Shown: positions 18,456-38,828 of the stretch, one piece after another | How positions within the stretch are numbered: the first letter of the stretch is position 1 | Layout: every line of letters begins with the position of its first letter | Origin: a virus | Length of the DNA: 64,000 bases | Direction: 5' to 3' (one strand) | Virus record (IMG/VR): IMGVR_UViG_3300018036_000004 | Location: 1 to 64,000 of that record | The notes under the pieces: generated by a model | Seen by the model: only the letters and a program-made list of their open reading frames with translations | Databases searched by the model: none | Told to the model about the DNA's origin: nothing | Translations under genes and position numbers: made by a program

Positions 18456-18505
18456 GGAATCTACTCTCCTAAGTAAAGTAGATTCCTATACATATATGTA
18501 GAAGG
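18456..18505 (+). promoter_or_regulatory. TATA/hairpin cassette copy 1, nested with a terminator
   Basis: GGAATCTACT / AGTAGATTCC (10-bp stem) forms the end of the preceding gene. Its loop carries the cassette's ACTCTCCT box and its right arm supplies the ATTCC that leads into the core TATACATATATGTAG. The usual hairpin after the core is weak here. It lies 150 bases before the gene at 18651, which has a second copy closer by. Confidence 0.6.
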
Positions 18506-18542
18506 AACCCTTTATATAGGTCGAACTGTACAAATGATAAAT

Positions 18543-18579
18543 AAAAGAGAGAAGAGTGTAAAAAGTTCCTCTCTCTTTT
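18543..18579 (+). terminator. hairpin terminator joined to cassette copy 2
   Basis: Stem AAAAGAGAGA / TCTCTCTTTT with an 18-base loop and T-run. Its 3' arm is at the same time the CTCTCTTTT box of the following cassette. Confidence 0.7.
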
Positions 18580-18620
18580 ATTTTAGCTTCCTATACATAT
18601 TACTTAGGAACACTAAGTAA
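18570..18620 (+). promoter_or_regulatory. TATA/hairpin cassette copy 2
   Basis: CTCTCTTTT box, core TTCCTATACATAT, then a perfect hairpin TTACTTAG-gaaca-CTAAGTAA in the place where other copies have GTGG/CCAC. The changed but still paired stem is strong covariation evidence for an RNA or DNA hairpin. It drives the gene at 18651. Confidence 0.7.
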
Positions 18621-18650
18621 ACATAAACAACACATAGAACGGATATAACA

Positions 18651-18962
18651 ATGACAGACAATCAAGTATTTACAGCATTCCAAAAGAAGGTCAAAGCAAT
18701 GCGTTTTGGTCATCATGTCGAAATCCCTTTCACAACCAAAGTAGTGGTTCATGTATGGACAGATAAAACAGATGCTAAATCCCGTAAAGAGATCACATTC
18801 ACAATGCTTGCCGGTATGAAAGCTGTAGATGCTGGTAAAATGGCCGATGGTCTTGTGAAAGCTCACTTTGGACTTACCCGTAAGGAAATGGAATACTCTG
18901 CAAACTTCTGTTCACAGATCGACATACTGTGTGCGGTAACTGGAAAGAAACTCAAGGTGTAA
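18651..18962 (+). CDS. hypothetical protein, probably well expressed
   Basis: 103 residues, basic, no family recognised. It has its own cassette and its own strong terminator, so it is a single-gene unit. Codon use differs from the flanking genes (CTT, ACC, CGT and GTG rather than TTA, ACA, AGA), suggesting high expression. Possibly a small DNA- or host-protein-binding early protein; that is a guess from context only. Confidence 0.65.
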   Translation: MTDNQVFTAFQKKVKAMRFGHHVEIPFTTKVVVHVWTDKTDAKSRKEITFTMLAGMKAVDAGKMADGLVKAHFGLTRKEMEYSANFCSQIDILCAVTGKKLKV

Positions 18963-18967
18963 TAAAT

Positions 18968-19004
18968 AAAGGGAGAGGACTGTAAAAAAGTTCCTCTCCC
19001 TTTT
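18968..19004 (+). terminator. hairpin terminator joined to cassette copy 3
   Basis: Stem AAAGGGAGAGGA / TCCTCTCCCTTT plus T-run, six bases after the stop codon. The 3' arm doubles as the CTCTCCCTTTT box of the next cassette. Confidence 0.75.
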
Positions 19005-19047
19005 ATTTTGGATTCCTATACATATATGTAGAGGGGAAACTACATAT
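18994..19047 (+). promoter_or_regulatory. TATA/hairpin cassette copy 3
   Basis: CTCTCCCTTTT box, core ATTCCTATACATATATGTAG and hairpin ATATGTAG-aggggaaa-CTACATAT (8 bp). GTAG/CTAC replaces GTGG/CCAC by a compensatory change. It precedes the gene at 19083. Confidence 0.75.
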
Positions 19048-19082
19048 CAAAGGTATCCAAACCACTTAACTTAGGAGACATT

Positions 19083-19409
19083 ATGTCAGTAATTACTTTT
19101 GAAGATATGGAATGGTTACAAGAGGAAGCCAATTTGGATGCACAGCATTACGACGATCATGAGGATATGAAAGTATCTGAATGGTATTGGAATCGTTATC
19201 ATATGATTGGTTCTTGTATGAGCCAGTTGTTCTTTATCTATAATGGACATCAAAGTCCTCGTACAAAAGCCTCTGTATCTGTAGAAATCTTAAAAGAATA
19301 TGGATATGAAGCCATTGTAAAGGAATTAGAGGAAACAGAGACTCAAACAGACACAGACTGGGACGCTTTAGCGGACGAATGGTCTGAGTATCAGGCCTCT
19401 AAGGAGTAA
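19083..19409 (+). CDS. hypothetical acidic protein
   Basis: 108 residues, strongly acidic, with a TETQTDTDWDALADEWSEY C terminus. No family recognised. A single-gene unit between a cassette and a strong terminator; TAGGAG precedes the ATG. Small acidic phage proteins of this kind are often DNA mimics or inhibitors, but nothing specific supports that here. Confidence 0.6.
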   Translation: MSVITFEDMEWLQEEANLDAQHYDDHEDMKVSEWYWNRYHMIGSCMSQLFFIYNGHQSPRTKASVSVEILKEYGYEAIVKELEETETQTDTDWDALADEWSEYQASKE

Positions 19410-19428
19410 AAGGCCTTGTAGAGTGTTT

Positions 19429-19473
19429 AAAAGCCACTAGATCTAGTAAAAAGGCATGGATCTAGTGGCTTTT
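19429..19473 (+). terminator. strong hairpin terminator
   Basis: Perfect 15-bp stem AAAAGCCACTAGATC / GATCTAGTGGCTTTT with a 15-base loop, followed by a T-rich run, 20 bases after the stop. Confidence 0.85.
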
Positions 19474-19514
19474 GTTGTTTTTTCTAGAAAAAACACATAT
19501 TTTTATACTTTTTT

Positions 19515-19576
19515 ACTCTCTTTTGTATACTCGTTTCCTATATATATATGTGGAAGGACACCACGGTAAAAAATAG
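19515..19576 (+). promoter_or_regulatory. TATA/hairpin cassette copy 4
   Basis: A full cassette: ACTCTCTTTT, ten bases, TTTCCTATATATATATGTGG, hairpin GTGG-aaggaca-CCAC, then GGTAAAAAATAG. Here the box is not part of a terminator, which shows that it is conserved in its own right. It precedes the gene at 19624. Confidence 0.8.
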
Positions 19577-19623
19577 ATCCGATAAACTCACTTCTAGTAC
19601 CTTTTAAGGTCAAGGAAAATACT

Positions 19624-20256
19624 ATGTCTCATAAAATTGAAAATACTGCTAAACAATTGGAATTCTTGTTAGGAAACAAGGCAACTTTCACAGTAGAAAA
19701 CGAAGCCACTGCTACTCGTATTACTTACAGAGTAGAGTTGGTAGAACAAGCCACTCAGACTTACGATGTAATGGCCATGACAGGAAGTGACAACACTTCT
19801 AAAGGGTCTTATACACTTGTAGGACGTTTGGTTAATGGTTCTTTTGAGTTTCCTAAGACCGCTGAACATTACTTACCAAAGATTGCACAATCTAGTAATC
19901 AATGGGAAGCAGACTTTGCTAAGTCTTTAATGAAGCGTTTGAACTACGGTCCTTTGTCTGATAAACAAGTAGCCCGATTGAACATTATCTGTAGAAAGAA
20001 TGGTTATACAGTACCAAAGAGTTTGGCTACTGACTCAGTACACACAAGAACATTCAAGTGGTTGTTCGCTAAGTTAAACACTACAGGGCTTCCACAAGGT
20101 GTAAACTTCTACCATGAAGGGTTGTGCTGTAGATGTAACCTTCCCTTAACTGTTCCAGCGTCTATTATGACTGGATATGGTCCTAACTGTGCAGATGTGG
20201 TAGGTATCAAGGCTGAGTGGAAACGATTGAACAAGTCTTTTCCACCTAAGGCGTAA
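19624..20256 (+). CDS. DUF6011-like zinc-ribbon protein
   Basis: 210 residues. The C-terminal CCRCNLPLTVPASIMTGYG then PNC matches the small zinc motif of DUF6011-type phage proteins (C-x2-C...P-x-S...G-x-GP-x-C). The N-terminal 100 residues are beta-rich, followed by a helical part (KSLMKRLNYGPLSDKQVARL). Probably nucleic-acid binding. AAGGAAA precedes the ATG; the gene has its own cassette, and a terminator-type hairpin follows. Confidence 0.7.
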   Translation: MSHKIENTAKQLEFLLGNKATFTVENEATATRITYRVELVEQATQTYDVMAMTGSDNTSKGSYTLVGRLVNGSFEFPKTAEHYLPKIAQSSNQWEADFAKSLMKRLNYGPLSDKQVARLNIICRKNGYTVPKSLATDSVHTRTFKWLFAKLNTTGLPQGVNFYHEGLCCRCNLPLTVPASIMTGYGPNCADVVGIKAEWKRLNKSFPPKA

Positions 20257-20270
20257 TAATCATTAAGAAT

Positions 20271-20335
20271 AGGACTCTCCTTTACAGGGATGAGTCCTAT
20301 ATATTTATGTGGATAGGGTAACCACATTAAATAAT
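20271..20335 (+). promoter_or_regulatory. TATA/hairpin cassette copy 5, nested with a terminator
   Basis: TAGGACTC / GAGTCCTA encloses the TCC(TTT) part of the box, and its right arm runs into the core CCTATATATTTATGTGG. Then comes GTGG-atagggtaa-CCAC and ATTAAATAAT. It precedes the operon starting at 20365. Confidence 0.75.
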
Positions 20336-20364
20336 CCCTTACTTACTAACTATTGGAGACAACC

Positions 20365-20637
20365 ATGGATACAAACTACACAGGCCCTACTAAAACCTAC
20401 AAAGAGTTATTAGAGACAGCCCAACAGTTATTAGAGACAGCCCAACAGTTAGACTTTGAAGGTCACTTGTATGGTGTGGAATACGCATACAATGTGTATA
20501 CACAAGCCCAACAGTTCTTGGACTACTTATATGAGAATGGGTTTAACACAGATACCACACTTCCTATCTGTAAACACCTAATGATTAACTTAGGTTTTAG
20601 AGATCTGGTTTACGACTTACTACATACATATCCTTAA
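20365..20637 (+). CDS. hypothetical protein with in-frame duplication
   Basis: 90 residues. ATG at 20365 is chosen for the TTGGAG seven bases upstream. Residues 15-28 are two exact copies of LLETAQQ, from a perfect 21-bp tandem duplication. The TYKELLETAQQL start resembles the helical leaders of other proteins here. No family recognised. First gene of a three-gene operon. Confidence 0.6.
   Translation: MDTNYTGPTKTYKELLETAQQLLETAQQLDFEGHLYGVEYAYNVYTQAQQFLDYLYENGFNTDTTLPICKHLMINLGFRDLVYDLLHTYP
20407..20448 (+). repeat. perfect 21-bp tandem duplication in a coding region
   Basis: Two identical 21-base copies (starting TTATTAGAGACAGCCC), adding seven residues to the product. The lack of any difference between copies indicates a recent slippage or duplication. 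Confidence 0.9.
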
Positions 20638-20654
20638 TACCTTGGGAGAGACGG

Positions 20655-21038
20655 ATGAAGCTTAATTATAAGTACTACATTCAGTTAGACTGTCATTATA
20701 AGACAGATAACTGTCAGACACTATACTTACCTACACCTCATGGTATAAACACAGCTTTAGGTGAATACTATGATGTTCTTACGGACTTTGTAGAACATTT
20801 AAAACAAGATGTTCTACAAGACATCCCTAATACTAAGTACGATAAGGCCCCAGAACTAAACTGTTTAGTTGTAAAAGAGGACCCTTTAGGTACACACTCA
20901 GAGTGTACCTGTATAGCTAACTATCACTGGTATAATGTGGAAGCTTACCCAGCACACCTTATGGATATAATGATTGCTAGTATGAGAGAGATACAACAGA
21001 CAGTAGCTAGAGATCCACTTTTAGCTTTACTATTATAA
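20655..21038 (+). CDS. hypothetical protein
   Basis: 127 residues, histidine- and tyrosine-rich, no family recognised. GGGAGAG lies upstream, 17 bases after the preceding stop; second gene of the operon. Confidence 0.6.
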   Translation: MKLNYKYYIQLDCHYKTDNCQTLYLPTPHGINTALGEYYDVLTDFVEHLKQDVLQDIPNTKYDKAPELNCLVVKEDPLGTHSECTCIANYHWYNVEAYPAHLMDIMIASMREIQQTVARDPLLALLL

Positions 21039-21050
21039 AAGGAGATTAGA

Positions 21051-21482
21051 ATGCCGTACTTACATTCAGAGACACTAAACAATCTATTTCTTAAACGATT
21101 GTACGCTAAAGGAAAACTATCTATCACAGAGATGGTATCTCATTGTATAGGTAAGCGTATTAGACATACTACAGGTATGGATTATATGGATTGGGACGAG
21201 TACCTAAGGGACTACGAACACTTATACGGTTGGATCTTAACAGAACTTGTATACAGTTGGTGGTTTAAGGACGATACCTCTAACTTACCGGGTCAACAGC
21301 TTATTCCAGCTTTTAAATCCAGTGAAGAGGAATCTGTATTCGGTATGTTAATGGATGGTACTATTACTTGGGATTGTACAGAACACCAAAGGGCTGTACT
21401 TGAAGGTATTCATTGGAAGTTCGGTCCAGGTTGGAGAAACAAGTGGAAAGAGATACCTGTGTGTAAAGGAATGGACTTGTAA
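21051..21482 (+). CDS. hypothetical protein
   Basis: 143 residues, tryptophan-rich C-terminal half (IHWKFGPGWRNKWKEIP). No family recognised. AAAGGAG precedes the start, 12 bases after the previous stop; last gene of the operon. Confidence 0.6.
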   Translation: MPYLHSETLNNLFLKRLYAKGKLSITEMVSHCIGKRIRHTTGMDYMDWDEYLRDYEHLYGWILTELVYSWWFKDDTSNLPGQQLIPAFKSSEEESVFGMLMDGTITWDCTEHQRAVLEGIHWKFGPGWRNKWKEIPVCKGMDL

Positions 21483-21500
21483 AGTTTTTTAAATAAAAAC

Positions 21501-21561
21501 ACTCTCCTTTTAAATCTAGTTTCCTATATATTTATGTGGAAGGAAACCACGATAAAAAATA
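21501..21561 (+). promoter_or_regulatory. TATA/hairpin cassette copy 6
   Basis: ACTCTCCTTTT, core TTTCCTATATATTTATGTGG, hairpin GTGG-aaggaaa-CCAC, GATAAAAAATAG, then the ACTTACTATTGGAG leader found after several cassettes. It precedes the genes from 21591 to 22240. Confidence 0.8.
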
Positions 21562-21590
21562 GCCCAACCTACTTACTATTGGAGAACACA

Positions 21591-21806
21591 ATGAAAATCA
21601 ATCAAGAGATAACACGACAAGTTGCAGCTAGACTTTATGAAAGTCGCGTAGGCGAGATTCGGGAATACTTTGGTGACGCTGTAGCCCTCAAGTTTTATAC
21701 CGAAGTAGAGACTCGTACAAAAAACGTAAATAACTACGCTGAAGTAGTAGTAATTATCGGTGAAGTTTTCTTTCAATTCATAAATGAGGAGTTTTCAAAT
21801 GACTAA
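21591..21806 (+). CDS. small hypothetical protein
   Basis: 71 residues. The start is ATG at 21591 (TTGGAG at the right distance); the frame is open further upstream through the cassette but without a ribosome site. No family recognised. It overlaps the next gene by eight bases. Confidence 0.6.
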   Translation: MKINQEITRQVAARLYESRVGEIREYFGDAVALKFYTEVETRTKNVNNYAEVVVIIGEVFFQFINEEFSND

Positions 21807-22086
21807 TGAAATGTTAGAACTGTTAAAGTTCGCAAACCTTACAGGAACAATGGACGAGTGTTTAGCCTTGTTCGAACAAGGCCTGTCCTGTATTGAAGTT
21901 TACAAAGCGTTGGATGCAATGTTGGAACAAGAGGTACAACAAGAAGACCCTATTCAAAAAGGTATTCAACAATGGGTTGAAGCCCAACCCATTAGCAACT
22001 TAAGAACCTTACATGATAGTATGGTTCAAATGTCTAAAGAGTTGGAACAGTTGATTCCATTACCCACACAACCAAAATCTAAATAA
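21799..22086 (+). CDS. small hypothetical helical protein
   Basis: 95 residues from ATG 21799, which has GAGGAG upstream inside the preceding gene. Helical, glutamine- and glutamate-rich. LLKFANLTGTMDECLALFEQGL suggests a small helical bundle. No family recognised. Confidence 0.6.
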   Translation: MTNEMLELLKFANLTGTMDECLALFEQGLSCIEVYKALDAMLEQEVQQEDPIQKGIQQWVEAQPISNLRTLHDSMVQMSKELEQLIPLPTQPKSK

Positions 22087-22096
22087 GGAGTTTAAA

Positions 22097-22240
22097 ATGG
22101 TATTCACATATAAAGTAAAAGTTAACGATGTTCCAATGTACTTGGAGAGTATTACCCAAGACCAATATGATAACTGGTTAGACACTATGGCTTCTCTCGG
22201 TATGAAAGTCGAGTTGTTAAAGACTTGGATAGCCCCATAA
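22097..22240 (+). CDS. small hypothetical protein
   Basis: 47 residues (starts MVFTYKVKVNDVPMYLES). AAGGAG is well placed eight bases upstream, and the gene follows the previous stop by ten bases. Too short to classify; included because of the ribosome site and operon position. Confidence 0.55.
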   Translation: MVFTYKVKVNDVPMYLESITQDQYDNWLDTMASLGMKVELLKTWIAP

Positions 22241-22260
22241 GAATATAAGTAAGTAAGGTT

Positions 22261-22307: not shown

Positions 22308-22319
22308 ATTGACTTTTTC

Positions 22320-22380
22320 ACTCTCTTTTAGAGGGTCACTTCCTATATATATTTGTGGAGGGAAAACCACATTAAAAAAG
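22320..22380 (+). promoter_or_regulatory. TATA/hairpin cassette copy 7
   Basis: ACTCTCTTTT, core ACTTCCTATATATATTTGTGG, hairpin GTGG-agggaaaa-CCAC, ATTAAAAAAGA. It drives the genes from 22415 to 23688. Confidence 0.8.
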
Positions 22381-22771: not shown

Positions 22772-22781
22772 GGAGATTAAA

Positions 22782-23283: not shown

Positions 23284-23688
23284 ATGACACTACAAGAATA
23301 CACAACAGAATTGTTTAATGGGGATTACAATGACTTAGTATGGTTATCTAGTATGGCCTTTAAGAGTCAAAGTAATCCTGTATGGAGAAAGGTCTATAAA
23401 AGATCAGCTTTCTTTCAAACCTATAAACATGATCCTAATAAGAATACTTATAGACAAGGCTTACAATGGTATATGACAGTGGCTTGGGTCATGGGTTGGA
23501 AAGATGTGTCTGAACAAGACATTACATCTTTGTTAGACAATACCGGGTTTCTTAGAAGCCCTAACGAAGACTTCTTAGACTTATGTTTCGATAAGGCTAT
23601 GGAGTACGGAGAAAAGAATTTAATGTCTAATGTAGACATAGATGCCCAAGAAGCTGTAGATAAAGACATAGCTTCCGGTCGATTTTAA
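23284..23688 (+). CDS. hypothetical protein
   Basis: 134 residues, helical, tryptophan-rich. The first 25 residues (YTTELFNGDYNDLVWLSSMAF) weakly resemble the QA module. AAGGAG precedes the ATG. Its stop codon TAA runs directly into the box of the next cassette. Confidence 0.6.
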   Translation: MTLQEYTTELFNGDYNDLVWLSSMAFKSQSNPVWRKVYKRSAFFQTYKHDPNKNTYRQGLQWYMTVAWVMGWKDVSEQDITSLLDNTGFLRSPNEDFLDLCFDKAMEYGEKNLMSNVDIDAQEAVDKDIASGRF

Positions 23689-23736
23689 CTCTCTTTTAAA
23701 CAAACCCTTCCTATATATTTATGTAGGAAGGGTTTT
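23688..23736 (+). promoter_or_regulatory. TATA/hairpin cassette copy 8, variant with one long stem
   Basis: The ACTCTCTTTT box begins in the stop codon of the preceding gene. The core TATATATTTATG is enclosed by a perfect 12-bp stem AAACCCTTCCTA / TAGGAAGGGTTT instead of carrying a GTGG/CCAC hairpin after it. This could be a terminator or an altered promoter. It precedes the small gene at 23759. Confidence 0.65.
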
Positions 23737-23758
23737 GTAAATTATCTTTGGAGGATAT

Positions 23759-27812: not shown

Positions 27813-27829
27813 ATTACCTCCTAATATAA

Positions 27830-27875
27830 GTATGTTTTATAAATGTATAGGAAGTAAAAACCTAAAAGAGAGTCA
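27830..27875 (-). promoter_or_regulatory. TATA/hairpin cassette, degenerate copy
   Basis: On the - strand: TGA stop, CTCTCTTTT, then ACTTCCTATACATTTAT, without a clear hairpin after the core. It begins at the stop of the preceding gene, as other copies do, and lies 20 bases before the start of the next. Confidence 0.55.
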
Positions 27876-29633: not shown

Positions 29634-29891
29634 TTATTTAAGATCTTTATCGTTCATGACGACCACATTACCTAAAATGATGTGACCACCTAATTGTTTA
29701 CTGGCCTTAAAGTTTAAAGGCAGTTTCTTTAACCACCCCTCTTCGTTTACAACCATGATACTATCTGGGTCTAAACGAATTACTTCAATGTACCCGCCAA
29801 CAATACCTTGTAAAGTTTCTAGTAAACCTTCTTCTTTTACGGTTATGTCTTCTTGTGTGTTATCTGTTTTTAATACTGTAATGTTTATCAT
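29634..29891 (-). CDS. small hypothetical protein
   Basis: 85 residues, beta-rich (MINITVLKTDNTQEDITVKEEG). No family recognised. Its ATG lies in the right arm, and its AGGAG in the loop, of a 7-bp hairpin, so translation may be controlled by folding. First gene of a transcription unit, with a variant cassette directly upstream. Confidence 0.6.
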   Translation of the reverse strand: MINITVLKTDNTQEDITVKEEGLLETLQGIVGGYIEVIRLDPDSIMVVNEEGWLKKLPLNFKASKQLGGHIILGNVVVMNDKDLK

Positions 29892-29943
29892 GTTTACTCC
29901 TATCTAAACATATATATAGAATCTACTCTAGGATGTTAGAGTG
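29889..29943 (-). promoter_or_regulatory. TATA/hairpin cassette, variant with start codon in the hairpin
   Basis: Reading the - strand: CACTCTA, a hairpin CTCTA/TAGAG, core ATTCTATATATATG, then ATGTTTA-gataggag-TAAACAT. The last stem has a wholly different sequence from GTGG/CCAC but the same position. The ribosome site AGGAG is in the loop and the gene's ATG in the stem. Confidence 0.6.
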
Positions 29944-30161: not shown

Positions 30162-30224
30162 GTATTTTTTAACGTGGTCCTCCTTCCACATAAATATATA
30201 GGAAGGAGGTTTCCAAAAGAGAGT
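30162..30224 (-). promoter_or_regulatory. TATA/hairpin cassette for the 37-residue membrane peptide
   Basis: On the - strand the TAA stop of the preceding gene runs into CTCTCTTTT. Then CCTCCTTCC-TATATATTTATGT-GGAAGGAGG (9-bp stem round the core), the overlapping hairpin GTGG-aaggagga-CCAC, and GTTAAAAAATAC. The two stems share bases and cannot form together. Confidence 0.8.
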
Positions 30225-30574
30225 TATTTATTTAATCTAAATCCAACTCTCGCCGTTGGTGTGCTCAATACCACACCAGGTATTGGACTCTTCAACAACT
30301 CCTGTATACCATACTTGTTTAACTTCTGTATGGTCTGTGTTTCCAAGTATTGTTCAGGCACGAGCCTAGCGTCTTGTAAACGCACTACAGTGTCTTGGAA
30401 GGTCACCACTATGTGTCCACTAGTACCTTGCAAGGTAACACTGTTAGACTCTGTTGTAGCGTGTCCTACAGCGTGTTTACGAAGTTCTTCTTTTACTTCT
30501 TCTAACTCTTTATCCATTTCAGTACGGGCCTTGTACAAAGACAAGGCCTTATCGACTAATTCTTGTGTGTTCAT
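30224..30574 (-). CDS. hypothetical coiled-coil protein
   Basis: 116 residues: a helical N terminus (residues 1-38, TEMDKELEEVKEELRKHA) likely to form a coiled coil, then a beta-rich part (VTLQGTSGHIVVTFQDTVVRL). No family recognised. It directly follows the zinc-cluster gene (one-base overlap); its stop adjoins the next cassette. Confidence 0.6.
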   Translation of the reverse strand: MNTQELVDKALSLYKARTEMDKELEEVKEELRKHAVGHATTESNSVTLQGTSGHIVVTFQDTVVRLQDARLVPEQYLETQTIQKLNKYGIQELLKSPIPGVVLSTPTARVGFRLNK

Positions 30575-31278
30575 TACTCACCTCCCATACAGCCAATGTG
30601 AACATTACCAAAGTTTTCCACATTCACGAACTCAGTGTTCGCTTCGATAACTTTGACACACTTCGAGCAGATAGTAGCAAACCCTACTTTCGTGGTAGTA
30701 CCTGTGTGCTTAGGTGTTTCTTCTACTTCCTTAGCTTCTTCTACTTCTTGTGTTTCTTCTACAACAGGTTCTTTCAACTGATCCATCAAGTCGTCAGCCC
30801 ACATAGCAATCTTAGCGTATGTCGCTTGCTGACAAGACCCAGCCAATGGGCAACTGTTGCAAGTGTTATCTGGATAGTACTTCCCGAAACAACGATTAGA
30901 CATTAACGCAATGTCCTTTAAACTCAAGTACCCATCGTCCAAGTCCTCTTGGAACAACTCATGGTCAGTTTGGTCCAATGTAGGAACCCAACGGTTTGTA
31001 GATTCTACAACAGGTTGTTCTGTAACAGTTTCATTAACAGTTTCATTAACAGTTTCAGTGGTAGTAGTTTCTTCAAAAGGAATAGCTGTTTGAGTACCAG
31101 TAGGAAGTAAGTACCAACCACGCTTAGGTTTAGTACAACCCATTTCAGCTGTAGTAGACTCAAAAGCGGATTGGGAACAAGAAACACCTAACTCGTTGCA
31201 ACGGGCGACGACGGTACCTTTCTTAAAAGGGTTCTCAATAGCGGCGGTTTCAATAATGACAGATTGTATTGTATGCAT
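30574..31278 (-). CDS. hypothetical protein with cysteine clusters
   Basis: 234 residues. Two likely zinc sites: CFGKYYPDNTCNSCPLAGSC near residues 129-148 and a C-terminal ICSKC...HIGC. A threonine/glutamate linker includes the repeat TVNETVNETV, and a second acidic linker precedes the C-terminal site. Modular, probably nucleic-acid or protein binding. AAGGAG upstream; own cassette. Confidence 0.6.
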   Translation of the reverse strand: MHTIQSVIIETAAIENPFKKGTVVARCNELGVSCSQSAFESTTAEMGCTKPKRGWYLLPTGTQTAIPFEETTTTETVNETVNETVTEQPVVESTNRWVPTLDQTDHELFQEDLDDGYLSLKDIALMSNRCFGKYYPDNTCNSCPLAGSCQQATYAKIAMWADDLMDQLKEPVVEETQEVEEAKEVEETPKHTGTTTKVGFATICSKCVKVIEANTEFVNVENFGNVHIGCMGGE

Positions 31279-31325: not shown

Positions 31326-31389
31326 CTATTTTTTATCGTGGTATCCCTTTCCACATTAATATATAGGAATCAAAAAGTAAAAGGAGAGT
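31326..31389 (-). promoter_or_regulatory. TATA/hairpin cassette for genes 31278 to 30224
   Basis: ACTCTCCTTTT, core GATTCCTATATATTAATGTGG, hairpin GTGG-aaagggata-CCAC, GATAAAAAATAG. The box is the 3' arm and T-run of the ATPase gene's terminator. Confidence 0.8.
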
Positions 31390-31437: not shown

Positions 31438-32586
31438 TTAGATTGTACCCAATACAGGATCGATCAGACGCTTAAGTTCGAAACGATTGTCCTCGTCCAA
31501 ACCATCTGTCCAAGACATTAAGGCTTCTTTTAACAACTCTACTGAGGATACAGTGTTATCATCTTTCCAGATGTCTGTAGCATCATTACAGATGTCACAC
31601 AAACCCCGCATCGTAAGTTCACCATAGATGTCACCATCCCCAATAGACTTACGAACACCTTTGGTGATCAAACCCAACTTGTCAAAGAACTCGTCCCCAA
31701 CTTGGATGGCCAACTCAGGATACAATCCTTTTAAGATGTTTCCTTCCTCTGACCAGTTCATGTAGTGTGTCTCAATTTTAGCTCCCAATCGGTCCATGAT
31801 AGAACCATCGATTGGATTAGAACTAGTCATTCGACCCCGGGCATCACCGGACCCAACACTGTTAGCAGTACAAACGAACTGTGGTTTGTTACCAAACTGA
31901 TCTCTAAACAAAGAGACCATGTTACCATGAGGATCAAGGATACGACCAGAGATACTGTCACACAAGATACGAAACCATTCTGCTTGGGCAGGGTCTGCAC
32001 GGTCAACATCTGACAATAAGATCAAAGGAGCACGACGAACACCATCTTTACCCTCTACACCTTGTGTCACAGCATGCCATACAGCACCGTACTGCCAGTA
32101 AGAACCTGTTTCGTCTAATTTCTCTTTGTAGAACCAACCATCCAAGTCTTTACCTGGTGTAAACGACAACGCCATTGCAGGACGACGAGTCAACGCGGAG
32201 AACGCGTGTACAAAGGCGTCTTTCCCAGTACCGGGCATTCCCCAGATAAACGCGTTACGACCATTCTTCACAGCGCGTAAGGCTCTTTTAAAGGAAACTC
32301 CTGCGTCACCCTTAGTTGGGAACTGATACCCTTTCGGCATCGGTAAGCACGTATCACCTTTTACACTTGTATCTACTGGAAGCTCTACTTTACCAATCTT
32401 AACAGACAACGCTGTAGATACAGTAGTACGGGACAACTTTTTGTTAACCATACCGTGAATCTTGTCTGAAATAACAGGGGCGTTGTACTCAGCCACATAA
32501 GCGTCTGGTGTCATATTGTGAACAGTTGAAAGGTGATTGATGATTGCGTGGTGTTCAAAACCACAGATAGCACATTTAATAGTCAT
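31438..32586 (-). CDS. cobS: MoxR/CobS-like AAA+ ATPase with N-terminal zinc finger
   Basis: 382 residues. N-terminal C5-x2-C8-x9-H18-x4-H23 followed by MTPDAYVAEY is a ROS/MucR-type zinc finger. The AAA+ core has Walker A GMPGTGK (116-122), a Walker B LILLSDVDRAD near 190, a sensor region FVCTANSVGSGD and IMDRLGAKIE. This is the MoxR/CobS branch, whose members act as hexameric chaperones with VWA-domain partners. Phage copies are often labelled cobaltochelatase CobS, but no cobalamin genes are present, so a protein-remodelling role is more likely. The HExxH and VWA proteins are encoded just upstream. Confidence 0.88.
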   Translation of the reverse strand: MTIKCAICGFEHHAIINHLSTVHNMTPDAYVAEYNAPVISDKIHGMVNKKLSRTTVSTALSVKIGKVELPVDTSVKGDTCLPMPKGYQFPTKGDAGVSFKRALRAVKNGRNAFIWGMPGTGKDAFVHAFSALTRRPAMALSFTPGKDLDGWFYKEKLDETGSYWQYGAVWHAVTQGVEGKDGVRRAPLILLSDVDRADPAQAEWFRILCDSISGRILDPHGNMVSLFRDQFGNKPQFVCTANSVGSGDARGRMTSSNPIDGSIMDRLGAKIETHYMNWSEEGNILKGLYPELAIQVGDEFFDKLGLITKGVRKSIGDGDIYGELTMRGLCDICNDATDIWKDDNTVSSVELLKEALMSWTDGLDEDNRFELKRLIDPVLGTI

Positions 32587-32635: not shown

Positions 32636-32698
32636 CTATTTTTTATTGTGGTGTCCCTTCCACATATATATATAGGAAACTAGAATTTAAAAGAGAGT
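32636..32698 (-). promoter_or_regulatory. TATA/hairpin cassette for the AAA+ ATPase gene
   Basis: ACTCTCTTTT, core GTTTCCTATATATATATGTGG, hairpin GTGG-aagggaca-CCAC, AATAAAAAATAG; 50 bases before the ATPase start. Confidence 0.82.
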
Positions 32699-33130: not shown

Positions 33131-33544
33131 TCACACCGGAAAGTTCATAACACCAGTATCTAATAGCGTACCCATTAAGTACTTACCAGGACCATGTTTA
33201 TAGGTTGTAAGGATATTTATAGCCCAACCCCCTAACAGGGTACCTTGTAATAACATACTAATAAAAGCGTCTCTGTCTTTATCCCATGGGGATAAACTTA
33301 CACACTGAAAAACATTTAAGGTTTGATTGGGCATATGTTCACAAAGAAATATTTTCTTTGTCAGAGGACAACCGTATACAATGGGACCTTGTTTCCCATA
33401 CCGCTCCTCTCTAACAAACCACAAAGTGTGATTGTTTAACATATAAGCTGCCTCGTCTACAGACCAGTTAGGCACTTTCATTAAAAGAGTAGTAGAGGGC
33501 CTTAGACTAGGCCCCCTACCGGTTACTTTATGTAAAGTATACAT
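33131..33544 (-). CDS. hypothetical protein, possible outlying member of the paralogue array
   Basis: 137 residues from the ATG at 33544, which overlaps the upstream stop as TAATG. YMLNNHTLWFVREERYG recalls MLYRINWNN..FWLCFRQ in the tandem array 5 kb away, and LLGGWAINIL recalls the GY..YA(F/L)Q segment. The resemblance is weak. No other family recognised. Confidence 0.5.
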   Translation of the reverse strand: MYTLHKVTGRGPSLRPSTTLLMKVPNWSVDEAAYMLNNHTLWFVREERYGKQGPIVYGCPLTKKIFLCEHMPNQTLNVFQCVSLSPWDKDRDAFISMLLQGTLLGGWAINILTTYKHGPGKYLMGTLLDTGVMNFPV

Positions 33545-34692
33545 TACACCACCTCCACATCTAATGGTTGTATGCCAGTCTTTTCGTCTGGTACACCAGC
33601 CCATGTAACTCGGACTCGTTTACCATTCATAATAGCCTCGTCACCAACTTTAAAGATAGGTGGTTTGTTACTATTAGATTTAGTACCACCTTGTTGTTCA
33701 TCCTCTTCATCGTTATAGGCTTCACCTTGTTCATTGGACCCTTCATCACCATTACCTTCACCAGGATCTGACTTTGTACCATCATCTTGTTGTTCTTGTT
33801 GTTCCTCGTACAATCCTTCTAAGGCTAAAACAATGTCCATAGCCAACCACAAGTGATCCAAGTCGTCTTCTGGCTTAAGTGCGATAACTTTATCCAAGAT
33901 TGGTTTCAACTCTCCGGTAGATACCATTTCAAAAGCTTCTGGGTTGTCCTCATAGTAAGACTGTAAACATTGCATTTGTTGGAAAGACTGATAACCCAAT
34001 CCCAAGTCTCTAAAAGTACAAGTGATAACAGCCAACGCTGTACCCGTAGCGTTTACTTTACGATGTGGATTGGCTTCCTTACCCTCTTTCTCCATACGAA
34101 GAATCAGATCTTGTAAGGCTACAAGTTTCTCTTTAATAGGAGGAAACGCTTGAATACCACATCGTTCGATTCTAATGTCTTCGATAATGTTACCCCATGT
34201 GAGGATCACAGGAATGTATTTCTTCCACTTAGCGGGTTCCATCAAAGGAAGGCGCTTATTTAAGGGTTCCCACACTTCAGTTACAGATAACTGTCTAGTA
34301 CAAGAGTATGCAGTGTGTAATCCTTCATGATAGGCTCCACCTTGTAACTCGTGTGTAATGCGACGGGCTTCCGTCGCGGCCAACATCTCCAAGTTAGAAG
34401 GTGTTTCCGCGATTACAATAGCCTTCTCATAGTCATACACTTGTACTTGGTTTGCTTGTGTAACCAAGTAAGAGATGTCATCAAAAGACAAAGTACCAGT
34501 GAAGTTATACTTCACATATTGTCCAACCACATTCATTAATGAACGAGCGGTCCAGTTATCTTTATTGTAGAACTGGCGTCCTCTAGAAAACACTGGAGGG
34601 GCTTCGATCCCCAAAGGGGATAAGATACCTTGTACGGCCGCTCTATGTGTTGCTGCCCATTGTGAACTCTTGTAACTACTAACTTTTCTCAT
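33544..34692 (-). CDS. CobT-N-like protein with HExxH motif
   Basis: 382 residues. The middle holds ARRITHELQGGAYHEGLHTAYS, in which H122-E-G-L-H126 is an HExxH zinc-hydrolase motif, followed by WGNIIEDIRIERCG, the pattern I know from the N-terminal part of CobT/VWA-partner proteins. A glutamate/glutamine-rich acidic linker (about 295-345) precedes a small beta domain (FKVGDEAIMNGKRVRVTW). In bacterial CobT, an N-terminal region, acidic linker and VWA domain are one chain; here the VWA part is a separate gene next door. Whether it is a protease is open. Own cassette; AAGGAG upstream. Confidence 0.7.
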   Translation of the reverse strand: MRKVSSYKSSQWAATHRAAVQGILSPLGIEAPPVFSRGRQFYNKDNWTARSLMNVVGQYVKYNFTGTLSFDDISYLVTQANQVQVYDYEKAIVIAETPSNLEMLAATEARRITHELQGGAYHEGLHTAYSCTRQLSVTEVWEPLNKRLPLMEPAKWKKYIPVILTWGNIIEDIRIERCGIQAFPPIKEKLVALQDLILRMEKEGKEANPHRKVNATGTALAVITCTFRDLGLGYQSFQQMQCLQSYYEDNPEAFEMVSTGELKPILDKVIALKPEDDLDHLWLAMDIVLALEGLYEEQQEQQDDGTKSDPGEGNGDEGSNEQGEAYNDEEDEQQGGTKSNSNKPPIFKVGDEAIMNGKRVRVTWAGVPDEKTGIQPLDVEVV

Positions 34693-34737: not shown

Positions 34738-34799
34738 CTATTTTTTAATGTGGTTTCCTTCCACAAATATATATAGGAATCCACATCTCGAAAGAGAGT
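34738..34799 (-). promoter_or_regulatory. TATA/hairpin cassette for the HExxH gene, nested with a terminator
   Basis: GGAATCCAC-tctctttcgagat-GTGGATTCC (9-bp stem) contains the ACTCTCTTTC box in its loop and runs into TATATATATTTGTGG. Then GTGG-aaggaaa-CCAC and ATTAAAAAATAG. The first stem may be the terminator of the VWA gene. Confidence 0.8.
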
Positions 34800-34815: not shown

Positions 34816-36192
34816 TTATGTATCCAAACGAATCTTTTTAGTACGCTTTGGAAACATAATGTCTTCTAAACAAGACATTAATGCTTTTGGTAAGTCATTA
34901 ATGTTGTCCACAAGAATGTTTCGTTCTCTAAACACTGCTGTCACTCCAGCACACCCGGCGGATTCTAAACCCACACCAATAATAGCAACACCAGCCTCTT
35001 TAGCCAAACGAATCTGTCTAAGTACTACACCAGGATTATTTGGATAACCATCTGTCAACACCAAGATAACCTTGTGGGCCTCTGTACGCTGATTCATACC
35101 CATCATGGCATGATGGATACCGTCAGACATTGGTGTACCACCACGAGCCACTACATTGGTAAATCTGCCAGCACACTGTGCTACTTTTTCCTCATAACCT
35201 TTAAACACATCAATGTTCACAGATCCCTCACGATGGTACAATCTAGATTCATTGTAAGGAACTCTAAACCCACCTTCTCCATCTCGGAAACCAATAACTT
35301 CTACTGGACAATCTAAGGACTCCAACGCTTGTGCTATCGCTAAAGAAGCTGTAGCCTCTCCAGTAATAAGTCTCTTAGTCATTGAACTAGACTCATCCAA
35401 TACAATACTAACAGCCAATGTGGTTTGATCTTTATGTATTGTAGTCTGGTTAGGACGACTAGGCATTTTACCGCCTTTAATCTGTACCATGGATTGTACA
35501 AGTCTTCTGGAAGACAAGTCCCCTCTCTTTGTACCATGTAATGTTTCTGGTCTACGAGCCATCAAGAACTTAGTTCTCAACTTAGACTTCAACGCCCCAC
35601 ACAAAGGTTTAGCGGCATCCTTAAGTTTCTTAGCCTTACGAGGACCACCCGTTTCCACTTTAATGATCTGGTCATGACTAGTAGAGTAAGGACGATAGTG
35701 TTCCTCATCCCAAGAATCTACATTTTGTTGTAAGTCTTCATTGTCCATCAAACTATCTACCAAGTTATCCAACGCTTTTGAAGAGTCCACCATTTGTTCC
35801 TGTAAAGACTGTAACATCTGTTCGAACTCTTCATCTGACATCTGTTGGATTTCGTCTTGGACACTAGAAGAGCCACTTTCGTTACTCTCACTTGTTTCAC
35901 CTTTGTGGGCTTCCTCTTGTGTTTCAGTTTCTTCACCTTGTTCACCAGACTTACCGTCTTGGTCTTCTTCGTCTTCCTGACCACCATTCGAAGATTCTTC
36001 TTGGTCTTCTTCACCTTGCTGACCGGAACCATCCCCGTCTTGGTCTTCATTAGACTCGTCACCTTGGTCGTTCGAAGATCCGTCTTGGTTATCTTGGTCT
36101 TCATTAGACTCATCACCTTTAGTATTATCTTTATCTTTAGATGTGTCTTGTTGATCACGGATAACTTGTAAAAATTGATTTGTTACACGCAT
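34816..36192 (-). CDS. cobT: VWA-domain protein, CobT-C-like
   Basis: 458 residues from the ATG at 36192 (TTGGAG upstream). Residues 15-115 are an extreme acidic low-complexity region (D, E, Q, S, G). A basic middle part follows. The C-terminal 200 residues form a von Willebrand A domain: MIDAS DESSS (266-270), TPMSDG, and LTDGYPNNPG. MIDAS proteins of this type bind metal and partner with MoxR/CobS ATPases, matching the neighbouring AAA+ gene. The metal-chelatase label of CobT is not supported by context. The separate cassette suggests independent dosage control. Confidence 0.85.
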   Translation of the reverse strand: MRVTNQFLQVIRDQQDTSKDKDNTKGDESNEDQDNQDGSSNDQGDESNEDQDGDGSGQQGEEDQEESSNGGQEDEEDQDGKSGEQGEETETQEEAHKGETSESNESGSSSVQDEIQQMSDEEFEQMLQSLQEQMVDSSKALDNLVDSLMDNEDLQQNVDSWDEEHYRPYSTSHDQIIKVETGGPRKAKKLKDAAKPLCGALKSKLRTKFLMARRPETLHGTKRGDLSSRRLVQSMVQIKGGKMPSRPNQTTIHKDQTTLAVSIVLDESSSMTKRLITGEATASLAIAQALESLDCPVEVIGFRDGEGGFRVPYNESRLYHREGSVNIDVFKGYEEKVAQCAGRFTNVVARGGTPMSDGIHHAMMGMNQRTEAHKVILVLTDGYPNNPGVVLRQIRLAKEAGVAIIGVGLESAGCAGVTAVFRERNILVDNINDLPKALMSCLEDIMFPKRTKKIRLDT

Positions 36193-36225
36193 TGTAAACT
36201 CCAATAAAGTAAGTAAGTGTTCGGG

Positions 36226-36287
36226 CTATTTTTTATTGTGGTTTCCTTCCACAAATATATATAGGAATCAAAAAGTAAAAGGAGAGT
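36226..36287 (-). promoter_or_regulatory. TATA/hairpin cassette for the VWA gene
   Basis: ACTCTCCTTTT, core GATTCCTATATATATTTGTGG, hairpin GTGG-aaggaaa-CCAC, AATAAAAAATAG, then an ACTTACTT-type leader and TTGGAG. Confidence 0.82.
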
Positions 36288-36318
36288 ATGAAAGTAAAAC
36301 TTTTTTCATACTCTCCTT
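36279..36318 (-). terminator. terminator of the upstream basic protein gene
   Basis: AAGGAGAGTATGAA / TTCATACTCTCCTT, 14-bp stem. On the - strand its 3' arm and T-run are also the box of the VWA gene's cassette. Confidence 0.78.
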
Positions 36319-36334
36319 ACAAGTACCTTTACTG

Positions 36335-37534
36335 TTACATCTTGTATTGTGTAGCAACCGTGACAGTAGGACGAACAGCTTTTATCTCTTTATGGCAATT
36401 AACTACTTGTTCCTTTCTAGGTCGTTCTACCTTATACAAAAGACCATCTCCGGACTTTCTTCTCTTAGTGGCAAACACTTGTTCGCCATCTCGAAGCTTC
36501 TTTCTACCTACCCACAATCTTACCATAGTAGGTCTTCTTGTGTATTGATAACCGTGCTCACCCCCTTTACCTGTAGGTACTTGGTCTACATACAAGGTAC
36601 GAACATTCGACAAGGTCTCTGCGTCGATTTCAATCTGTTGTAGATTAACCTTTACATTGGACTTAGACTTAACTTTTGTTGTACGACCATTAGGTGCTTC
36701 TACAACTTTAAACTTTCGTTTAATAAGCTTAGACTTTACAACAGTCTTAGGATTGTTAACCGCATGTAAGAAGTTAAGAACACCTCTACATCCCGCTCTT
36801 GTAGCTACTATATGGTCTTCGTCACAGTGTGGTACTAACAAGTTTTCGTTTACACCTGTAACACTTCTAATCTGTAACTCACCAGACTCTCTAACGTATC
36901 GAACCAAAGTAATACGATGTGTGTAACTTGTATAAGTATAGTTCTGTAATACTTGTGAGATTACATGATCTACATAAGCACTAGATCTATTAGTGTAATT
37001 TGTCCAGTTAGAACCAAACCGTTTATGTAAGTCTTTACTCTTTATAGGACTCATAAAGAACATCCATACATTGTCTTGTGTTGGACAACATACAAGTGTT
37101 GGCTCTTGTACGTTCACACTAGGTAAGGTACAGCTAAACGTTGTATCTACGGTTTCTTTAAACCGATCGTAATCGTCTATCTCGTCAACGTGTTTACCTA
37201 GGTACTCGTTAATAGCTTCTAACTGTGCAGGATCTTCTTCTGGTACCAGACTAAGATACAAGTCCTCATCCACTACATACATCGTTTGTTTACTGTTATA
37301 CCAGTCTCGAATAACTGGAATAGTATGTAACTCCCACTCTGTAAGACCGCCTTGTCTTTGTAAAGCATCCAAGTAACAAGCGGCATCCGCTTGCCGCTTA
37401 TGTTCACCTCGATACGGCATACGTTTCAAAGCTTGGGATACGTTTTGAATAGCGTCCCACCAACCTTGTCTTTGTTGGTACGTACTTGTTAGCTCTTTAT
37501 CTAACATGTCTAAAACATCTAAAATATGGTTCAT
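36335..37534 (-). CDS. hypothetical basic protein
   Basis: 399 residues from the ATG at 37534 (TTGGAG upstream); a longer frame upstream runs through the cassette and is not expected to be translated. Helical N-terminal part (DVLDMLDKELTSTYQQRQ), a middle beta-rich part, and a strongly basic C terminus (RRPTMVRLWVGRKKLRDGEQV). Nucleic-acid binding is plausible from charge. No family recognised. It is next to the VWA/AAA+ set but separately promoted. Confidence 0.62.
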   Translation of the reverse strand: MNHILDVLDMLDKELTSTYQQRQGWWDAIQNVSQALKRMPYRGEHKRQADAACYLDALQRQGGLTEWELHTIPVIRDWYNSKQTMYVVDEDLYLSLVPEEDPAQLEAINEYLGKHVDEIDDYDRFKETVDTTFSCTLPSVNVQEPTLVCCPTQDNVWMFFMSPIKSKDLHKRFGSNWTNYTNRSSAYVDHVISQVLQNYTYTSYTHRITLVRYVRESGELQIRSVTGVNENLLVPHCDEDHIVATRAGCRGVLNFLHAVNNPKTVVKSKLIKRKFKVVEAPNGRTTKVKSKSNVKVNLQQIEIDAETLSNVRTLYVDQVPTGKGGEHGYQYTRRPTMVRLWVGRKKLRDGEQVFATKRRKSGDGLLYKVERPRKEQVVNCHKEIKAVRPTVTVATQYKM

Positions 37535-37560
37535 AGTTTTCTCCAAGTAAGTAAGTACCT

Positions 37561-37622
37561 TATTGTTTAACGTGGTTAGGCGTCCACAAATATGTATAGG
37601 AATCAAAAAGTAAAAGGAGAGT
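37561..37622 (-). promoter_or_regulatory. TATA/hairpin cassette, divergent pair, left member
   Basis: ACTCTCCTTTT, core GATTCCTATACATATTTGTGG, hairpin GTGG-acgcctaa-CCAC, GTTAAACAAT. It faces the + strand cassette 40 bases away, so this gap is a divergent control region. Confidence 0.78.
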
Positions 37623-37657
37623 GAGTTTTTAAAAAATAAAAAAGAATTCAAAAAGTT

Positions 37658-37720
37658 ACTCTCTTTTAAAGAGTCACTTCCTATATAGTTTTGTGGAAGG
37701 GGAACCACTTTAAAAAATAC
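37658..37720 (+). promoter_or_regulatory. TATA/hairpin cassette, divergent pair, right member
   Basis: ACTCTCTTTT, core CACTTCCTATATAGTTTTGTGG, hairpin GTGG-aaggggaa-CCAC, TTTAAAAAATAC, then ACTTACTTGGAG. It precedes the gene at 37757. Confidence 0.8.
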
Positions 37721-37756
37721 TTCGCTACATAAACCTATACTTACTTGGAGTAAACA

Positions 37757-38086
37757 ATGGACGAGATCCGTTTTACCTGTCCTGTCTCTGGACACCACTA
37801 CTTATACTCACTTGTACGCTTTCGTCGAAAGTATCCTTTAACTGTAGAAGATATGGACTACTACTTTACAGTGATGACTTTTGATGTGTTGAAAGATGGT
37901 CGCTTTGCTATCCGTTCAATGCAAGATTACTGTCGTGAGAATGGTAGTTTGTCTACTGGTGACTTGGTAGTTGTACCAAAGGAAGATACTAACAAGTTCA
38001 AAGACTATGTCATTAAGTGGCACAGTCAGTGGACTAGTGGTAGTGTTGTATCCGACTTGTACGACCTATTACAAAACGAAGGCTAA
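37757..38086 (+). CDS. hypothetical protein
   Basis: 109 residues, no family recognised; beta-rich N-terminal part, helical end. Codon use (CGT, CGC) differs from most neighbours, as in other cassette-driven genes that may be strongly expressed. TTGGAG precedes the ATG. Confidence 0.62.
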   Translation: MDEIRFTCPVSGHHYLYSLVRFRRKYPLTVEDMDYYFTVMTFDVLKDGRFAIRSMQDYCRENGSLSTGDLVVVPKEDTNKFKDYVIKWHSQWTSGSVVSDLYDLLQNEG

Positions 38087-38099
38087 CCTTTGTGTAGAG

Positions 38100-38126
38100 G
38101 GTTGGATACTGTAATGGTGTCCAACC
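38100..38126 (+). terminator. hairpin terminator
   Basis: GGTTGGA / TCCAACC stem with a TAC/GTG extension, followed by a T-rich run; then an ACTTACTTACTTGGAG leader without a cassette core. Confidence 0.65.
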
Positions 38127-38162
38127 TATCTTTGATTTTTTACTTACTTACTTGGAGAAACT

Positions 38163-38765
38163 ATGACAAAGACAAATAGAAAAACAACAAGAGACTGGAT
38201 GAAAACTAGTCGGTATGAATATGAGTGTAATGACTTAACTGTTAACATAATGTTAGCTGCTAACATTATGTGTAAGTCTACTGGTTGGAACAACCCACAT
38301 CGTATGAAAACTTTATGGGACCGTACTAGTAAGAATGGTCGTGGTGTGGAAAACACAAACAGTATAATCACCATACAACGATCCAAGCGTAACGAGTTTT
38401 CCCGAGGACATTGTGAGTCCTTAGTAGGGTACGGTTTTAACCACGGCTACAAAAGAGTTCATGTGTCGGGAGCTAAAACAAACTTAGGACACACATTGGT
38501 TATTTTGTTACATGAACTGTGTCATGCTGACCAAGGTAATCTCCCTACTATTAATGGTAAGACACGACCACACGACTTACCTTTTAATATACAACAGTAC
38601 AAGATGGCTCGTAAGTGGTGGGGTTACACTACTCATCCCGAGGATGCCGGATGGTCCATTGGTAAAGGGTACGCTCCCACTAAACATTTAAGGGTTTGGT
38701 TAGAACAAAAGATAGTAGACCAAGACCCAAAGGTTATGGCTTGGTTAAAAAAGATTGTCTTTTAA
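38163..38765 (+). CDS. SprT-like zinc metalloprotease-fold protein
   Basis: 200 residues. GHTLVILLHELCHADQG contains HExxH (H117-E-L-C-H121) in a helix preceded by a hydrophobic strand, the pattern of SprT/WSS1-type and related phage metalloproteins. A candidate third ligand is a later histidine (TTHPEDAG). In cells, SprT-like proteases remove DNA-protein crosslinks; in phages the role is unknown. The leader ACTTACTTACTTGGAG is that of cassette genes, but no TATA core is present after the terminator. Confidence 0.75.
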   Translation: MTKTNRKTTRDWMKTSRYEYECNDLTVNIMLAANIMCKSTGWNNPHRMKTLWDRTSKNGRGVENTNSIITIQRSKRNEFSRGHCESLVGYGFNHGYKRVHVSGAKTNLGHTLVILLHELCHADQGNLPTINGKTRPHDLPFNIQQYKMARKWWGYTTHPEDAGWSIGKGYAPTKHLRVWLEQKIVDQDPKVMAWLKKIVF

Positions 38766-38828
38766 ACTCTCTTTTGTAATTCCGTTTCCTATATATATTT
38801 GTGGAAGGGATACCACTTTAAAAAATAG
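38766..38828 (+). promoter_or_regulatory. TATA/hairpin cassette copy 10
   Basis: It begins one base after the preceding stop: ACTCTCTTTT, core GTTTCCTATATATATTTGTGG, hairpin GTGG-aagggata-CCAC, TTTAAAAAATAG, then CACTTACTTACAATG. It drives the two small genes to 39432. Confidence 0.82.

Follow-up and report, generated by a model that had tools for sequence, protein, structure and literature searches.

The first 64,000 bases of the virus record IMGVR_UViG_3300018036_000004 (102,476 bases in all, here G000) form the window analysed in this work. They contain a short cassette that is repeated ahead of genes on both strands, which raises the question of what this element is and how it is read. 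An earlier note on this DNA had described it as a phage-specific promoter whose transcripts open with a covarying hairpin. The evidence presented below indicates that the cassette is probably a phage-specific promoter of one regulon, likely read by the host RNA polymerase together with a phage sigma-like protein, and that the hairpin is optional. Thus, the repeated element and its placement stood up to the analysis, whereas the comparison with relatives spoke against the hairpin as the defining part. Motifs of the same layout were found before the same genes in related phages.

A weight matrix built from the cassettes recovered 17 copies scoring 34-55 bits in the 102-kb record; everything else scored below 11 bits, and the top score in three block shuffles of the record was 9.8 bits. 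An eighteenth, diverged copy (approximately 29904-29923, minus strand) has kept the 24-nucleotide (nt) box distance but no longer has TTCC or the final base of ACTCTC. The repetition on both strands, previously put at about 17 copies, was therefore confirmed with 17 strong copies and a diverged one. All 18 are located between 18463 and 38822, ten on the plus and eight on the minus strand. A pattern search tolerating up to three mismatches gave 23 window matches in comparison to 4.7 expected. The elements follow in the order ACTCTCYTTT, ten variable bases, TTCC, TATATATWTWTGT and GG, and in the aligned copies the distance from the start of ACTCTC (CCTCTC in copies 18588 and 19013) to the start of TATATA is 24 nt, i.e. 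an 18-bp spacer. This agrees with the 16-18 bp box spacing of a sigma-70-type bipartite promoter; a TTGACA-like -35 box is absent, as ACTCTC matches TTGACA at none of six positions. GTGG sits where the RNA start would be expected, approximately 7 nt past the -10 box. A scan for host-type promoter consensus sequences across 18300-38290 returned 30 sites, below the shuffles (mean 55), and none of the 30 coincided with the cassette boxes. Downstream of the hairpin, TAAAAAATA is present in nine of the 18 copies, and ACTTACTT...GGAG is not universal either. The only match above the gathering score in an Rfam search of 15000-42000 was a tRNA.

Besides G000, the exact cassette was found in IMG/VR only in G001 (G001:101510), which is another contig from this phage, and in G002 (G002:55500). 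The earlier statement that no copy occurs before 18 kb or after 39 kb consequently holds for the G000 record and not for the whole phage. There was no copy of the exact pattern in genome_contigs (one genome each for 84,980 bacterial and archaeal species; exact matches only), and a DNA search of named phages for near matches to the cassette gave none. A distant DNA search of named phages with one 71-base query returned weak pieces in 11 records (best E 0.6), and a pattern search with the hairpin only gave no matches.

The terminase of G000 shares 54% identity with its counterpart in LR745208.1, a 485-kb phage that has not been cultured. G001 overlaps G000, with near-identical proteins from approximately 42 kb to the G000 end, and adds approximately 41 kb. 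It encodes a 291-amino-acid (aa) protein, taken as the capsid protein without a family search, which is 84% identical to its LR745208.1 counterpart and has at least 469 relatives among the 600 candidate stretches listed from IMG/VR. Because of these terminase and 291-aa protein relationships, G000 is one fragment of a widespread huge-phage clade. G002 (62.6 kb) carries the cassette and has the same G+C content as G000 and G001, and no protein in common with them at E 1e-5. Its tetranucleotide correlation with the two contigs was r 0.82-0.93, in comparison to 0.22-0.32 for T4, which is also AT-rich, and 23 of its ORFs (open reading frames) match LR745208.1. From tetranucleotide usage and the cassette, without overlap, we infer that G002 is probably another piece of the same phage type.

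The placement of the cassettes relative to genes was evaluated for same-strand ORFs starting with ATG, having a ribosome-binding-site-like word and encoding at least 35 aa, with 4000 random places as the control. Such an ORF was present within 250 nt downstream of all 18 cassettes (22% of random places) and started within 100 nt of 16 of them (8%). The 18 cassettes serve 17 distinct ORF starts, copies 18483 and 18588 having one in common, and the median distance from TTCC to ATG is 75 nt. Only four of the 18 lie inside greedily chosen ORFs, although such ORFs cover 87% of the record. The earlier proposal that selection acts on the element itself is supported, and the element has promoter geometry, keeps out of ORFs and is placed just ahead of them. 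The proposed role of TATATA as a -10-type box is likewise consistent with this geometry, and orthologous genes in relatives are preceded by other two-box motifs, as expected of a promoter regulon.

With up to three mismatches allowed, the cassette was found only in G001 and G002 among 49 records, which come from 50 loci (49 of 141 loci plus L010). The search of related phages for the motif, suggested in the earlier note, therefore did not extend the sequence itself beyond these contigs, and several relatives turned out to carry a two-box motif of their own. Unseeded k-mer tables revealed a strong motif in LR745208.1 and in the relative G005, and the seeds for both were taken from these tables. 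The LR745208.1 motif, GATTtc.CTAAAAA..CCGATAGGG, has 56 copies by matrix (lowest 26 bits, next 11.6), and the G005 motif, GGGGGGTTCAACTC..CTCCGTATA with the spacing TTCAAC-17-TATA, has 23 (lowest 34 bits, next 11.9). An ORF started within 100 nt of 51 of the 56 copies in LR745208.1 (random 14%) and of 19 of the 23 in G005 (random 15%). Seeds for G003, G025, G010 and G037 were chosen upstream of orthologous genes, so the presence of their motifs there is by construction; the word GGGGTTCC of G010 and G037 had already emerged from the unseeded tables. The motifs obtained comprised 44 copies in G037 (lowest 20.8 bits, next 10.5), seven in G003 (lowest 48.9, next 11.8), and 37 in G010 (lowest 18.2, next 14.9, shuffles up to 17.3), where the separation was weaker than for the other matrices. 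Eight sites were assigned in G025 by pattern, which replaced a first matrix that gave overlapping matches. A G039 motif with 39 matches was rejected (lowest 15 bits in comparison to shuffles of up to 20). As judged by eye, a CCGTA-like core in the second box is common to G005, G010, G003, C12953 and C8050, and the first box is the most divergent (GGGTTCAAC, GGGTTCCC, GGTTGGAGC, CGTTAAAAC, TTAATYGAA and ACTCTC). The idea that the cassette genes form one temporal class fits the distribution in LR745208.1, because 48 of the 56 motif copies lie in its first 160 kb, where few protein matches fall (2 of the 84 best listed protein matches of G000, G002 and the G001 tail).

Homologues of five G000 cassette genes (E up to 1e-4) were identified in G005, and all five are located directly behind a copy of the G005 motif. 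In the window these genes, all on the minus strand, are 29634..29891 (DUF3846), 30574..31278, 31438..32586 (a weak AAA ATPase match), 33544..34692 (PHROG 1576, E 2e-4) and 34816..36204 (von Willebrand A/CobT-like). The weakly AAA ATPase-like, PHROG 1576-like and von Willebrand A/CobT-like genes (31438-36204, minus strand) also cluster in several clade records; a search for relatives with the CobT-like protein as the query found none. For a test free of seeds, we compared the upstream regions of four conserved genes in 13 sets representing 12 phages, as C2514 and G005 belong to a single phage (99.97% over 15,128 bases; their pairs were counted as between-phage), and some genes of G024, G039 and G043 lie in one common divergent intergenic region. 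The threshold was the 95th percentile of between-phage, different-gene pairs. All six within-phage pairs exceeded it in G000, G005 (and its duplicate C2514), C34198, C12953 and G010, four of six in G025, and three of six in both G003 and G039. The mean score for the same gene across phages was 22.5, in comparison to 21.7 for different genes. Because within-phage pairs exceed the threshold in most phages and same-gene pairs score so close to different-gene pairs, the upstream sequence tracks the phage more than the gene.

Hairpin tests were run on 20 copies, namely the 18 in the window and those of G001 and G002. The hairpin had been described as part of each cassette, and 18 of the 20 copies did fold with negative energy in a short window from approximately the expected RNA start; the exceptions are 23708 and 27853. 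Its stem had been said to differ between copies yet still pair. The variants named at 18588, 19013 and approximately 29922 are real, and G002 has GTAG/CTAC, but 13 of the 20 stems are GTGG/CCAC. When 3' halves were exchanged between copies (chimera test), 0-4 of 20,000 permutations reached the real mean, depending on which of six windows was chosen, and the count was 296 when the test was confined to the seven non-GTGG copies. In a duplex test, 4 of 20,000 permutations did so with narrow arms (20 copies), 1919 with the seven non-GTGG copies alone and 5585 with wide arms in the 18 window copies. The folding z-score was modest, -1.29 +/- 0.33 for 20 copies and -0.86 +/- 0.40 for 18, the latter against -0.42 +/- 0.19 for control windows. 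By the proposed covariation check on aligned copies, pairing within copies is real but, because most stems are GTGG/CCAC, is based on few variants, and its strength varies with the test used. Leader hairpins with matching arms and variable sequence were also present in G005 (z -1.40 +/- 0.38, control -0.61 +/- 0.26; chimera 1/20,000) and in the seven G003 copies (z -2.56 +/- 0.69, control -0.72 +/- 0.43; 171/20,000). The values for G025 were -1.06 +/- 0.50 and -0.62 +/- 0.38 (control).

Other inverted repeats surround the boxes. The repeat TTCC/GGAA around TATATA is weakly supported overall (494 of 20,000 permutations, 20 copies), being short in most copies and long in 30204 and 23708. In six of the 20 copies the first box falls in the 3' arm of a stem of 12-15 bp that has T-rich sequence behind it, and a 12-bp stem was attained in 0.7% of 1200 shuffles. 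These stems could act as terminators of the upstream unit; a terminator scan with a loop limit of 8 listed none of them. The leader hairpin does not resemble an intrinsic terminator, as A-rich sequence follows it on its own strand and the TATA box on the other.

These observations are consistent with a mechanism in which ACTCTC would serve as the -35-like box and TATATATWTWTG, behind an 18-bp spacer, as the -10-like box, and the RNA would start at or beside GTGG. Most transcripts would then open with a short hairpin within a leader of approximately 50-75 nt (in most copies) that ends in a ribosome-binding site. The hairpin would most likely be a 5'-terminal stem-loop that slows mRNA decay, as an optional addition. 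The reader would be the host RNA polymerase bearing a phage-made sigma-like protein, the regulon would consist mostly of small genes expressed early or in the middle of infection, and its motif would be replaced in concert between relatives. More tentatively, and with less confidence than in the promoter itself, we suggest that the regulon keeps its targets while both boxes are rewritten in concert, giving each phage a private code with a co-evolving sigma-like reader. Such a code may block the use of genes by co-infecting relatives, the hairpin being an add-on in some lineages.

Candidates for such a reader are present in the clade. RNA polymerase beta (PF00562) had no match in 15 records, with controls positive in 14 of 14. 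Three sigma-like genes lie in a row in G002 (47781-50629, corresponding to L017:7781-10629, plus strand). The first (47781-48719) matches PHROG 1740 (E 7e-9), with Pfam region 2 below the cut-off, and its family was found in G002, G005, G010, LR745208.1, G024 and G039 (6 of 13 records). Its structural model was poor overall (predicted template modelling score, pTM, 0.34) with confident helical parts, and the best Foldseek matches were mostly sigma factors (E 1.3e-3 or weaker). The second (49156-49899) passes the Pfam cut-off of region 2 only, and the third (49889-50629) passes those of regions 2 and 4 and has sequence matches to SigA and RpoS chains in solved structures; the two are tandem sigma-70-type genes. 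A 201-aa protein that matches sigma region 4 (G000:88891-89496, corresponding to L014:4891-5496, plus strand) occurs in 11 of 13 clade records.

Several observations weigh against the proposed regulon and its reader. Full sigma genes were recognised in only three of the 13 records (G002, G037 and G039); none was found in G000 or G001, and neither in G005 nor in LR745208.1 is the sigma-like gene preceded by the phage's own motif within 3 kb. Nothing links a sigma protein to any of the motifs. The chance of finding five of five G005 homologues behind a motif, approximately 2e-6 for 23 copies and 283 predicted genes assumed to be independent, overstates the case, because four of the five genes are neighbours. 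Of the six G005 cassette genes that have a G000 homologue, the remaining one (96537) corresponds to the second and not the first gene in a G000 cassette unit. In LR745208.1 only one G000 cassette gene has a homologue, and 729 nt separate this homologue from the closest motif upstream. The seed-free test was negative or weak in G043 (0 of 6 pairs), G037 (2 of 6), C8050 (1 of 3) and G024 (1 of 3), and no clear motif emerged from the unseeded k-mer tables of G003, G004, G024, G025 and G043. Many motif copies lie inside ORFs chosen greedily by the longest rule (12 of 23 in G005, 31 of 56 in LR745208.1 and 28 of 44 in G037), although such ORFs cover approximately 90% of those records. The leaders of LR745208.1 (z +0.18 versus 0.00), G010 (-0.54 versus -0.55) and G037 (-0.25 versus -0.26) showed no hairpin above control, which, together with the two window copies that lack it, argues against the hairpin as the defining part.

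The scarcity of full sigma genes would suit a promoter read by an alternative sigma factor of the host without any phage specificity factor, a view that overlaps with the explanation preferred here except for the reader. We regard it as unlikely, as the exact pattern is missing from the bacterial and archaeal genomes searched and the motif varies within one clade, which differing hosts would explain only partly. Similarly unlikely, in our judgement, is an element acting at the RNA level, in which the cassette is a cut site or a translation control within long transcripts; the hairpin would then be what acts, and ACTCTC...TATATA would flank it as a recognition sequence. The matching hairpin arms, the TTCC/GGAA repeat around TATATA, which is long in two copies, and the stems that overlap the first box speak for such an element. 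On the other hand, conservation is highest in the two boxes at fixed spacing and not in the hairpin, both hairpin-less copies retain the boxes, three relatives have a two-box motif without a hairpin above control, and the divergent cassettes at 37566-37714 fit initiation better.

Inverted repeats that flank or follow the -10-like box also bring to mind the N4 virion RNA polymerase, which reads its promoters through an extruded DNA hairpin. Such a mode of reading seems highly improbable here, where the hairpin has a loop of mostly 7-9 nt and is placed on the downstream side of the TATA box. PF00940 had no match in 15 records, but the controls were matchless too, so the enzyme is not excluded by this search; a 3573-aa G002 protein had no Pfam match in the two pieces searched. 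Least probable of all, to the point of being almost negligible, is a mobile repeat that happens to insert ahead of genes. Many similar copies in a single region would suit it, but the ten bases between the boxes vary in sequence while being fixed in number, the copies precede ORFs far above random places, and orthologous genes in relatives carry different motifs. A phage-specific promoter with an optional leader hairpin therefore remains the explanation that we prefer.

On the plus strand, the first cassette (18463..18519, copy 18483) reads ACTCTC-18-TATACA and has a bulged alternative hairpin. Its nearest downstream ORF lies behind the next cassette, and its transcript, without an ORF of its own, would meet a 12-bp stem with a T-rich tail (approximately 18541-18581) before that cassette; the segment 18483-18585 (plus strand) is thus a candidate for a short RNA of approximately 85-90 nt. 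The two CCTCTC variants, 18568..18624 (copy 18588; hairpin TTACTTAG/CTAAGTAA) and 18993..19049 (copy 19013; hairpin ATATGTAG/CTACATAT), both have a first box overlapping the 3' arm of a 12-bp stem. The hairpin is GTGG/CCAC in 19515..19571, 20274..20330 (a GTCC variant), 21501..21557, 22320..22376, 37658..37714 and 38766..38822 (copy 38786, where a 37-nt window slightly favours a different fold). The cassette at 23688..23744 (copy 23708) has no leader hairpin, and a 12-bp inverted repeat, AAACCCTTCCTA/TAGGAAGGGTTT, flanks its -10-like box. On the minus strand, the cassette at 27817..27873 (copy 27853), also without a leader hairpin, heads a run of genes on its own strand; one of them encodes a 5'-3' exonuclease (25009-25992, minus strand), which fits a pre-replication class. 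The diverged cassette (29886..29942, copy approximately 29922) reads ACTCTA-18-TATATATATG with the hairpin ATGTTTA/TAAACAT. The remaining minus-strand cassettes have GTGG/CCAC: 30168..30224 (copy 30204), where CCTCCTTCC/GGAAGGAGG also surrounds the -10-like box, 31333..31389 and 36231..36287, whose first boxes lie in the 3' arms of 14-bp and 15-bp stems, respectively, 32642..32698, 34743..34799 and 37566..37622. The last is the divergent partner of 37658..37714, and the first boxes of the two can pair (12 bp, long loop).

A different word, AGTATATAA, occurs 14 times in G000, G002 and the tail of G001 taken together, with approximately 3.7, 3.7 and 2.2 expected for the whole of G000, G001 and G002, respectively. 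It lies 11-37 nt ahead of a predicted gene start at six of the seven G000 places and is possibly a second, late promoter class, with too few sites to judge. The window also contains a row of leucine-rich-repeat genes (10190-13879, plus strand; two checked with Pfam), a relative of which (G001 100144-100788) adjoins the extra cassette at the G001 end, a tRNA-Ala gene with the anticodon TGC (15214-15287, plus strand) and a gene for a 1716-aa protein (44361-49511, minus strand) with a tail sheath match in its C-terminal part.

Regulons are expected to resist change, as every target must change along with the reader, and related phages with different genome-wide promoter motifs at the same genes would make such a change traceable in sequence data. 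With the motif as a handle, the genes expressed early or in the middle of infection, and the missing specificity factor, could be sought in uncultured huge phages, and promoter-sigma pairs that may be free of cross-reaction could be drawn from them. In the literature searched we recognised no paper on this cassette or on promoter turnover of this kind in huge phages, which is not proof of absence; what is new is that the motif changes in concert from one relative to another.

Phage promoters read by phage sigma factors are known from SPO1, T4 (gp55) and phiEco32. The cassette resembles them in that a set of phage genes has a common, non-host promoter sequence, and differs in the concerted, clade-wide change of the motif, in the leader hairpin and in that the sigma factor here is a candidate. 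The 5'-terminal stem-loops of E. coli ompA and papA stabilise mRNA and, like the leader hairpin, are short, variable in sequence and placed at the 5' end (here the predicted one); in contrast, the hairpin of the phage belongs to a repeated promoter cassette, and stabilisation is a proposal. In the portion of the N4 work available to us, the promoter hairpins of the virion RNA polymerase are centred at approximately -11 and loop bases are required (PMC4496689). Both systems combine a promoter with an inverted repeat, but hairpin position and loop size differ, and the hairpin sequence here is not fixed. The closest described case known to us is the extended start-associated sequence (ESAS) of Cluster K mycobacteriophages, which, in the parts of the reports available to us, is a repeated intergenic promoter-like cassette with -35 and -10 boxes 17-18 bp apart and an imperfect inverted repeat; its consensus varies by subcluster, and associated start sites lie in the non-structural half (PMC3203893, PMC11373665). 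To the extent that those parts describe it, the two have in common a repeated promoter-like cassette, similarly spaced boxes and a consensus differing among relatives. The ESAS boxes are SigA-like, whereas the first box here is not, and the 13-bp SAS at the start codon was not itself searched for. With regard to the ESAS imperfect inverted repeat of approximately 15-17 bp, the boxes are present here and TTCC/GGAA is short in most copies and long in two. In contrast to ESAS as described there, the phage has a hairpin after the -10 box, carries 18 copies in comparison to seven in Adephagia, and belongs to a clade in which both boxes change between relatives.

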